Shown here piece after piece: positions 13,706 to 15,452 of a stretch of 15,452 nucleotides of DNA (position 1 is its first letter; each line of letters starts with the position of its first letter). The notes under the pieces were generated by a model. It saw only the letters and a list, made by a program, of their open reading frames with translations, was not told the DNA's origin and ran no database searches. This DNA is from an uncultured Anaerolineales bacterium (lineage in GTDB: Bacteria > Chloroflexota > Anaerolineae > Anaerolineales > UBA11657): positions 1 through 15,452 of the forward strand of contig CAJWIA010000012.1 in assembly GCA_913040765.1 (NCBI GenBank), written 5' to 3'. The position numbers and the translations under genes are program-made.

Positions 13706-14935
13706 ATGAGTAATCCTATTCGTTTGCTCCATTTCGCAGATGTGCATGTGGGTATGGAGAATTATGGTCGACTCGACTTGGATAGTGGCACTTCGACACG
13801 AGTTCGCGATTTTCTAGACCGTATGGATGAGGTGATTGACTACGGAATAAATAATAAAGCAGATATTGCAATATTTGCTGGTGATGCATTTAAAACGAGA
13901 GATCCAAATCCAACACAACAGCGCGAATTTGCAACGCGCCTTAAACGTCTAGCTGATCATATGCCATTGCTGGTATTGGTAGGTAATCATGACGTGCCGG
14001 GCATGGCTTCTAAGGCAAGCAGTGTTGATATTTTCAAGGCTCTTGATGTTCCCAATGTTATCGTTGGGAACGAGCCTACAGGTGAGGTAGTGGACACTAG
14101 GAGTGGACCTGTGTTCCTAGCTTGGATGCCGTATCCTATGCGTAACAGGTTACTTACTAAGGATCAATATCAAGGAAAATCATTGCATGATCTGGATTTG
14201 GCACTCCAGACCGCTGTAGTTACTATTATCAAGGATTTGGCGGGTAAAGCTATAGAATATGATATGCCTCGCGTACTAAGTAGTCACTTGTCAGTATCTG
14301 AGGCCAAACTCGGATCAGAGCGTAGTGTCATGCTCGGTAAGGATGTGTCTATAGGTAAATCGGTTCTTAACGACCAAGTGTGGGATTATGTAGCTCTAGG
14401 ACATATTCACAAACATCAGGATGTTAACTCAGGTTCATATCCGGGGATTGTCTATTCAGGGAGTTTGGAGAGAATAGATTTTGGAGAGGAAAAAGATTCT
14501 AAAGGATTTTGTTGGATAGAGCTTGAGCGTGAAAAAACCGTATGGAAGTTCGTACAAGTTGATGCTCGTCCGTTTTTGACCATTCGAGTAGATGTGCGTG
14601 ATCACGAAGAACCTACCACTGCTATTCTAAGTTCCATATCAGCACATGATATTAAGGATGTAGTGATTCGCCTTATGATAAATATCAAGTCGCAAAATGT
14701 GCAGTTGCTAAGAGACAATGATATTGTTGCAGCTTTGTCCGATGCACATAGCTATTCTATAAACAAGGATGTTGAGCACGAAGCTAGGACGCGAATCGGT
14801 GGGGTGGCTGCTGAGACACTATCCGCCGAAGAGCTTCTTAAGCATTATTTAGTTGACAAAGGGTATATGCCTGAACGCATAAAAACTCTTTTGACAGCCG
14901 CTAACAATATTTTCCAAAATGATACTAAATCATAA
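13706..14935 (+). CDS. sbcD: Exonuclease SbcCD subunit D (Mre11-like nuclease)
   Basis: 409 residues. The metallophosphoesterase motifs are all there: Asp12 and His14 in FADVHVG, Asp60 in FAGDAFK, Asn94-His95-Asp96 in GNHD, His194 in SSHLSV, and His233/His235 in LGHIHKH. The SbcD-type capping region entry YSGSLERIDFGEE (250-262) follows. With the SbcC ATPase it opens hairpins and trims double-strand breaks. The segment after Asp60 reads GDAFK where GDLFD or similar is usual; the metal ligand itself is kept. GGAAG (13696-13700) lies 5 nt before the ATG. sbcC is not directly downstream: a long gene-free gap and a repeat-protein gene follow instead. Assignment sure; whether it pairs with a distant SbcC is not visible. 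Confidence 0.95.
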   Translation: MSNPIRLLHFADVHVGMENYGRLDLDSGTSTRVRDFLDRMDEVIDYGINNKADIAIFAGDAFKTRDPNPTQQREFATRLKRLADHMPLLVLVGNHDVPGMASKASSVDIFKALDVPNVIVGNEPTGEVVDTRSGPVFLAWMPYPMRNRLLTKDQYQGKSLHDLDLALQTAVVTIIKDLAGKAIEYDMPRVLSSHLSVSEAKLGSERSVMLGKDVSIGKSVLNDQVWDYVALGHIHKHQDVNSGSYPGIVYSGSLERIDFGEEKDSKGFCWIELEREKTVWKFVQVDARPFLTIRVDVRDHEEPTTAILSSISAHDIKDVVIRLMINIKSQNVQLLRDNDIVAALSDAHSYSINKDVEHEARTRIGGVAAETLSAEELLKHYLVDKGYMPERIKTLLTAANNIFQNDTKS

Positions 14936-15028
14936 CCAGACTTTTCATTCAAACAAAGAATTAATCGCCTCGCGTGACGTGGACCACTATAAAATTACCC
15001 CCTGCCACATGGAATAAAAACAAAAAAC
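14936..15028. other. Gene-free spacer after sbcD
   Basis: AT-rich with no open reading frame worth calling. No stem with a T-run was found, so sbcD has no recognisable intrinsic terminator here. Together with the promoter and leader that follow, it makes a 366-bp stretch without a gene. Confidence 0.5.
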
Positions 15029-15058
15029 TTGACATACCTTGTTGAGATATTGTATATT
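15029..15058 (+). promoter_or_regulatory. Strong sigma70-type promoter of the repeat-protein gene
   Basis: A consensus TTGACA (15029-15034) and TATATT (15053-15058) are 18 bp apart. An inverted repeat GTATA-TTAG-TATAC (15052-15065) overlaps the -10 box and could be an operator. The start is expected near 15065, well upstream of the start codon at 15302. Confidence 0.7.
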
Positions 15059-15065
15059 AGTATAC

Positions 15066-15301
15066 AGTCGGTTACGGTCAATATACTGCGTTCACCGGCG
15101 ATGCATCAGATAGGCCCGAATAAAATTATATATCTGCCGACCTAGTGGTTTTCCTCAGAAGTCAGGGGTTTTAGTCATCGCTTGTGACAGGAGTTGCCAA
15201 GAAAGAATTGCAAATAAATAATTACTAAATTGATAGTATGACACGTTGACCTGTTAAACATAAAGGTCGCAATCATCCTGAATGGATGAAAGGATATTGA
15301 A
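15066..15301 (+). other. Long 5' leader of the repeat-protein gene, with hairpins
   Basis: About 235 nt separate the promoter from the start codon, long for this gene-dense window. Visible pairings: GTCGGT (15067-15072) with GCCGAC (15136-15141), a long-range stem with one G-U; GTCA/TGAC (15174-15188); GACCT/AGGTC (15248-15268, loop 11); and TCATCC-TGAAT-GGATGA (15273-15289), which directly abuts the ribosome binding site. No known riboswitch signature was recognised. It may be a regulatory leader or a plain untranslated region. Confidence 0.4.
15289..15294 (+). promoter_or_regulatory. Ribosome binding site of the repeat-protein gene
   Basis: AAAGGA, 7 nt before the ATG at 15302. It fixes the start and its first base is the last base of a 6-bp hairpin, so folding could limit access. 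Confidence 0.7.
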
Positions 15302-15452
15302 ATGATCAATTACATTTTAAGTTGGGAAAGTAACGTTAATATGCAGACAGCAGGTACACCTGGTGGTCCTCCAGCGGGCGAAGGCGGTACACCTGGCGGT
15401 CCTCCAGCGGGCGAAGGCGGTACACCTGGCGGTCCTCCAGCGGGCGAAGGCG
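15302..15452 (+). CDS. Gly/Pro-rich tandem-repeat protein, 3' end beyond window
   Basis: Partial gene, 50 codons visible. The non-repeat N-terminus is MINYILSWESNVNMQTA, then the 11-residue unit GTPGGPPAGEG repeats three times up to the edge. Each unit has five Gly, three Pro and one Glu, so the chain should be extended, disordered and acidic. Gly spacing (3, 1, 4, 2, 1) is not the period-3 Gly-X-Y of collagen, though the composition is similar. There is no signal peptide or membrane helix in the visible part. The good Shine-Dalgarno site, the promoter and a frame-preserving 33-bp period all argue for a real gene. Its base composition (about 73% GC in the repeats) stands out from the rest. 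Function unknown; a surface or structural polymer, or a flexible linker before a downstream domain, are possibilities. Confidence 0.75.
   Translation, partial: MINYILSWESNVNMQTAGTPGGPPAGEGGTPGGPPAGEGGTPGGPPAGEG
15353..15452 (+). repeat. 33-bp tandem repeat, three copies, continuing past the edge
   Basis: Copies begin at 15353, 15386 and 15419. Copies 2 and 3 are identical, and copy 1 differs by one silent base at 15364 (T for C, GGT/GGC). There is no spacer between copies. Near-perfect identity points to recent expansion or active homogenisation. Confidence 0.95.

Follow-up and report, generated by a model that had tools for sequence, protein, structure and literature searches.

A contig of an uncultured Anaerolineales bacterium ends within a gene whose product turns, after 17 residues, into 11-residue Gly/Pro-rich units, and this raises the question of what kind of protein the gene encodes and what the long leader in front of it does. 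The window, by which we mean the whole 15,452-nucleotide stretch analysed, is the entire contig C12, ends exactly at 15452, and belongs to a 1.6-Mb genome of 259 contigs with an estimated completeness of 77%. The overall reading that we favour, and consider reasonably probable, is that a cis-acting leader controls cytoplasmic, disordered and strongly acidic scaffold proteins.

The interrupted gene and its neighbourhood

The open reading frame starts at ATG 15302, with an upstream in-frame stop at 15287, and its product consists of MINYILSWESNVNMQTA followed by three GTPGGPPAGEG units. The features of this part of the window are as follows.

13706..14935, plus strand: sbcD, exonuclease subunit SbcD (Mre11-like), upstream of the leader; NCBIfam TIGR00619 (E 1.2e-34, above cut-off) and Pfam Metallophos
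15302..15352, plus strand: N-terminal 17-residue module MINYILSWESNVNMQTA, from translation
15353..15451, plus strand: three 33-bp units coding for GTPGGPPAGEG; frame open at the contig end

The original prediction placed the repeats after 17 residues, and translation and TRF (period 33, 3.0 copies, 98% matches, score 193) agree with it; the repeats, which it described as perfect, are identical as protein, but the DNA of unit 1 differs from that of units 2 and 3 by one silent base. It was also right that the Gly spacing rules out a collagen triplet: the longest Gly-x-y run in the 50-residue window product is 3, and the product is therefore not collagen-like, so that this reading was rejected. 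The unit, said to belong to no repeat family that could be named, indeed has no Pfam or NCBIfam match.

The end of C12 within the array is an assembly break. Because C12 stops exactly at 15452, the continuation of the array that had been predicted beyond the window is present in this assembly solely as a separate contig, G000:C22. Contig C22 opens inside a repeat array that contains GTPGGPPPGEG in the frame of the window units, continues with TPHTGTTPDGEMHTPDEGG-type units, and then reads MATPDPTGEL and a poly-Asp/Glu tail, with the stop codon at C22:491. Behind the tail lies an SbcC-like gene, which matches TIGR00618 with an E value of 8.3e-77, below the curated cut-off, and Pfam AAA_23 and SbcC_Walker_B, both above cut-off. 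The longest exact stretch common to C12 and C22 is 25 bases. The start of C22 is very probably the missing C-terminal part of the window gene, in frame, a join that we infer rather than observe directly; it is strongly supported by the frame match, by the sbcD and sbcC sides seen in genus g1, and by the homologue P0007, which has both ends. In g1, the acidic tail lies ahead of sbcC in all five genomes, and sbcD is followed by the leader and the N-terminus in four of them (the window, L011/L055, L012 and L013), G008 being the genome whose sbcD side was not seen; SbcD of L011/L055, L012 and L013 is 69 to 88% identical to that of the window (tblastn). P0007 is a complete homologue of 113 residues with a window-like N-terminus MNNLLAWDWNFHLQTAD, a TPHTGTTPDGE segment and a C22-type tail ending in EETNV. 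The window gene thus very probably lies between sbcD and sbcC.

Variation of the unit among relatives, for which the original prediction had proposed to look at copy number, goes as far as the absence of any 11-mer in P0007, and the units are species-specific across assemblies. Because the complete P0007 has both ends without an 11-mer, the array is a variable, fast-changing spacer. In both genomes of genus g3, sbcD and sbcC are 30 bases apart with no gene between them; since the pair is directly adjacent there, the position of the window-type gene within sbcCD looks like a later insertion in g1, and a functional tie to SbcCD is not needed. None of the three genomes of genus g2 has a match to this sbcC or to the leader at E 0.001.

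The broken copies raise an alternative in which the repeat would be an artefact of assembly. Every one of the seven leader-bearing genomes has one or more copies cut off by a contig end, and runs of N lie inside the array in two scaffolds (G007:C52 and G009:C46), as an artefact might leave them; against this, the units are in frame and species-specific in separate assemblies, the ends are intact, one related gene is unbroken (G000:C85), and P0007 is complete. We rejected this explanation as extremely improbable.

Elsewhere in the window, a tRNA-Leu (caa) is located at 1161-1243, and the adjacent open reading frames 1283-1753 and 1750-2544 have similar N-terminal halves and, as judged by eye, a hydrophobic stretch near each start, with no Pfam match.

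A family of acidic proteins with conserved ends

The window gene is type A of a paralogous family of at least three types found in one lineage of Anaerolineales. The acidic tail motif [DE]3xDW[DE] is present in all 14 tails examined (five of type A, five of type B and four of type C) and in all seven homologues, and the proteins have hypervariable spacers between conserved ends. Type B is complete on G000:C85, where it encodes 321 residues that include repeats of EEHH and of GEYGGMG as well as a GVQDIFAMADAGDITYAEAYEKAEEDFDW-like segment; type C combines GEYG repeats with a segment similar to that of type B. The four copies of type C (G009:C7, G006:C32, G004:C37 and G005:C101) are all cut by the contig end, and the type C leader region is therefore not readable.

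The family has no match in Pfam or NCBIfam, and for type B a PDB sequence search gave no match and a PDB fold search (Foldseek) gave nothing usable, the best match having an E value of 5.6. A search of 5.8 billion sequences returned six relatives of type B, whose starts are predictions and some of which begin inside longer ones (P0002 inside P0003), and one relative of type A, P0007, from a search in which scoring was limited to the 7994 candidates with the most words in common; P0007 as query found no other. Protein matches with E values of about 1e-4 in G047 and G134 resemble low-complexity sequence and were discarded. No description of the proteins or of the leader was recognised in the open-licence literature searched; by these database and literature searches the protein family is undescribed, and the leader RNA apparently so as well.

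Net charge ranges from -40 to -102 in the eight proteins that have a start codon; their pI is about 4.05, and each contains only 0 to 6 Lys and Arg residues. Their hydrophobicity is low, the highest 19-residue Kyte-Doolittle mean being 0.52 among the seven homologues, the G000:C85 paralogue and the C22 part, and at most 0.32 in five N-termini including that of the window; by this Kyte-Doolittle measure, none of these sequences contains a hydrophobic segment of the kind expected for an export signal or a membrane or wall anchor. An AlphaFold2 model of a type B homologue has a mean pLDDT of 55; its single short stretch of helix, at residues of about 171-220, reaches block means of 78 to 92. Composition and this one low-confidence model suggest that the proteins are largely disordered. 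The earlier suggestion of a disordered linker to a C-terminal domain gains support from the distinct acidic C-terminal part on C22.

Gly/Pro/Thr-rich repeats are common in surface stalk and polymer proteins, and a surface adhesin stalk or extracellular polymer had been among the roles first proposed. This proposal was not supported, as strongly hydrophobic stretches for export or anchoring are absent and what follows the repeats in C22 and in the relatives is an acidic poly-Asp/Glu tail rather than an anchor; we rejected it as highly improbable. A cytoplasmic tethered polyanion or cation buffer would fit the protein composition, which an adhesin would not.

The leader RNA

The region between sbcD and the open reading frame contains the following features.

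15029..15058, plus strand: sigma-70 type promoter TTGACA-18-TATATT, 11 of 12 consensus positions
15066..15204, plus strand: structured leader RNA of 139 nt, from a nine-copy alignment, pair counts and shuffles
15067..15141, plus strand: P1, 15067-15071 (GTCGG) with 15137-15141 (CCGAC), crossing P3; invariant in nine of nine copies
15076..15116, plus strand: possible pseudoknot of 15076-15079 (GGTC) and 15113-15116 (GGCC); both partners change in one pair (C-G, U-A, U-G)
15092..15103, plus strand: 5' strand of P3, TCACCGGCGATG, pairing with 15176-15187; RNAalifold, pair counts, shuffles and folds
15107..15136, plus strand: P2 hairpin, 15107-15112 (CAGATA) with 15131-15136 (TATCTG); invariant in nine of nine copies
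15176..15187, plus strand: 3' strand of P3, CATCGCTTGTGA; 11 pairs, 98% of cells paired
15274..15288, plus strand: small hairpin of CATCC and GGATG immediately upstream of the ribosome-binding site; 97.4% of cells paired
15290..15294, plus strand: ribosome-binding site AAGGA, read from the sequence

The consensus promoter, long leader and ribosome-binding site of the original prediction are thus recovered as TTGACA-18-TATATT, a leader of about 236 nt and AAGGA. A promoter scan found four sites in all, two of them on the other strand, compared with a mean of 1.2 in shuffles. In all eight copies with upstream DNA, the promoter stands 6-7 bases ahead of a conserved AGTCGG in the common layout TTGACA-N16/18-TATATT or TACACT-N6/7-AGTCGG, with spacers of 16 to 18; the contig of the ninth copy starts too close to show a -35 box. 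From this layout, transcription would begin at about 15065, at or beside the first base of the 139-nt RNA. A further promoter-like site, which spans 15194-15222 and agrees with the consensus at 10 of 12 positions, would leave possible a transcript that starts near 15229 and lacks the RNA.

Covariation supports P3 as a long-range helix: two of its pairs are changed on both sides, a helix length of 11 pairs was reached by 1 of 200 column shuffles, and the alifold energy (z -2.33) was reached by 6 of 300 shuffles; on the other side, two P3 cells are unpaired. In all nine copies the minimum-energy fold contains either every one of the 11 P3 pairs or all but one; P2 appears in two of the nine and P1, which such folds are unable to hold together with P3, in none. 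Because P1 and P2 are invariant in all nine copies, they have no covariation support. When P1, P2, P3 and the pseudoknot are taken together, 99.1% of cells are paired, and both partners are changed in two P3 pairs and one pseudoknot pair. The covariation score of this whole structure (0.144 versus 0.089) was reached by none of 500 shuffles, as was its share of paired cells, while the three both-side-changed pairs were reached by 32 of 500 and the number of pair types by 307 of 500; when the partners were slid, pairing fell to 30-46%. Single-sequence folding energies are ordinary (z -1.80 to +1.11 across copies, and -0.33 for the whole leader), and common descent could account for part of the signal, which comes from nine sequences of two genera. 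An alternative pairing joins 15076-15077 (the GG of GGYC) with the CC of the 3' GTTGCC (15197-15198) in eight of nine minimum-energy folds and competes with the pseudoknot; such alternative pairings would be what a switch needs.

The conserved block might instead be an attenuating upstream open reading frame, [MV]HQI[GD]P..YLPT (15101-15145 in the window), rather than an RNA structure. ATG or GTG followed by HQI[GD]P is found in all nine copies and YLPT in seven, but a one-base gap shifts the frame in two (L011 and L013), no copy has a ribosome-binding site in the preceding 14 bases, and the covariation of P3 would be left unexplained. Leader-peptide attenuation was rejected on these grounds and appears very unlikely.

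Between the RNA and the open reading frame lie about 100 nt, in which, as in the whole of 14900-15452, no terminator-like site was found. In the hairpin abutting the ribosome-binding site, one of five pairs is changed on both sides (C-G to U-A); its covariation score was reached by 12 of 500 shuffles and its count of both-side-changed pairs by 229 of 500. Given the lack of a terminator-like site before the open reading frame and the presence of this hairpin, control by the leader would most likely act at translation.

Matches to the leader DNA comprise nine copies in 7 of the 10 genomes of the bacterial family, from two genera. Searched with a covariance model, 400 genomes of the order yielded the same nine copies, in seven genomes, while 400 genomes of a phylum sample, otherwise without g1 or g3 relatives, yielded the two copies in the genome of the window and no others; neither sample gave a copy outside the family. 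Both searches used stricter filters, which lose some weak matches, so that distant relatives of the leader may be missed. Five further matches to the RNA model were weak (E 0.46 to 6.24). In genome contigs, the leader core was found in 10 stretches, seven from this lineage; its relatives include six Anaerolineales bacterium MAGs of the Chloroflexota (UBA3499, UBA832, UBA3001, UBA1136, ALOHA_A2.5_8 and ERR599127_bin.8), which, from names such as ALOHA, presumably originate from sea water. The stretches in a Bacteroides MAG contig (two) and in Marinobacter (one) lack the rest of the leader and were set aside as chance, as were, by eye, the two-mismatch matches in G000:C34 and C88. No leader-core match was found in viral contigs.

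Rfam 15 covariance models gave no match to the leader in the nine copies (E up to 5; also E up to 0.5), and at the gathering score they found only a tRNA in the window. A match to RT-17 at 14998-15067 (E 1.6), which touches the first two bases of the leader, was judged to be chance, and a mir-3003-like near-match concerns a hairpin beyond the type B gene and not the leader. On G000:C85 (L005, about 757-814), the type B gene and a GAF-domain gene converge on a strong terminator-like hairpin, which is the source of weak Rfam matches.

All nine leaders lie upstream of a start codon, and eight clearly head this protein family, the open reading frame being complete or reaching the family's low-complexity sequence before the contig ends; the contig of the ninth (G004) ends four codons into the frame. 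Feedback would account better than a metabolite regulon for the restriction of the nine copies found to this family, and the folded leader could be a binding site for its own repeat protein or for another protein rather than a small-molecule switch. Against such autoregulation, polyanionic proteins bind RNA poorly, and no basic module was seen, with Lys and Arg together at most 6 per protein; we regard it as unlikely.

The leader could also be a riboswitch for a metal ion or another cation, with the Glu/His-rich and Asp-rich arrays buffering the ion that is sensed. EEHH-rich type B arrays, which occur in g1 and in the only g3 copy of readable length, that of G005, and the poly-Asp/Glu tails speak for this. 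So does the position of leader-headed B-type genes, which in g1 (G007 and G008) and g3 (G004 and G005) have an MscS-type channel and a TrkA-N ion channel in their vicinity, the channels being identified by Pfam on the G008 copies and by likeness in the other three; these neighbours hint at ion or osmotic stress. On the other side, the window copy, being of type A, is His-poor (a His fraction of 0.04 in the C22 part), none of the nine leaders heads a transporter gene, and the ligand is hypothetical. This explanation is also doubtful in our estimation.

In G007:C52 (L065, 5606-6790) and G008:C85 (L062, 6682-7851), a protein-kinase-like gene separates the MscS-type channel from the type B leader; the G008 copy falls just below the cut-off of Pfam Pkinase, and a AGTCGGTTTGGGTCACA-like stretch that recalls the 5' end of the leader is found upstream of the G007 copy.

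A proposed mechanism and comparison with known systems

In the reading that we favour, a cis-acting leader for acidic scaffold proteins, the RNA would form the long-range P3 and probably also a core of P1, P2 and the pseudoknot, would stay in the mRNA, and would control expression in cis. In the protein, a short module at the N-terminus would be followed by a low-complexity array that expands fast and provides a flexible spacer, and the C-terminus would be an Asp/Glu tail with [DE]3xDW[DE]. The protein would most likely act as a tethered polyanion whose tail and N-terminal module each bind something, such as basic proteins or metal ions, and the array would set the distance between them. A bolder and rather improbable version is that the leader represents a new riboswitch class of one marine Chloroflexota lineage that serves paralogous disordered polyanions: the RNA would sense an ion or metabolite, the cell would make a disordered buffer or condensate scaffold, and one copy would have jumped with its leader into the sbcD-sbcC junction of g1.

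Each part of this arrangement has a known counterpart. For the protein, the nearest comparisons include acidic intrinsically disordered proteins and the C-terminal tip of bacterial SSB, an acidic-aromatic tail with a terminal F that follows a disordered linker in a protein with an OB fold. Similarly, in the present family a putative disordered linker leads to a poly-acidic end segment that contains a conserved aromatic residue; unlike in SSB, this residue is a W inside the acidic stretch, and the family has neither an OB fold nor a Pfam or NCBIfam match. Bacterial collagen-like and Gly/Pro-rich repeat proteins consist of tandem units that differ between species, and the window family likewise has Gly/Pro-rich tandem units varying by species, but it lacks a Gly-x-y register as well as an export or anchor segment, and one homologue is devoid of the 11-mer.

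Structured leader RNAs normally occur on transporter, enzyme or ribosomal-protein genes. The present leader resembles riboswitches and the structured 5' leaders of Rfam in its conserved core, covarying long-range helix and possible pseudoknot, and in having a promoter directly ahead and a gene at a fairly constant distance. Unlike the Rfam leaders, it has no Rfam match, occurs in two genera only, and heads a repeat-protein family in place of a transporter or enzyme. Known structured RNAs of this sort are exemplified by the 104 candidates of PMC2864571. Short-read assemblies hide genes of this kind, as the copies broken at contig ends in all seven leader genomes illustrate. Should the RNA prove to be a switch, the identity of its ligand would reveal the role of these disordered proteins, which is rarely accessible from sequence. 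A structured leader is in itself of a known kind; what is unusual here is that every copy found is linked to a family of disordered repeat proteins.
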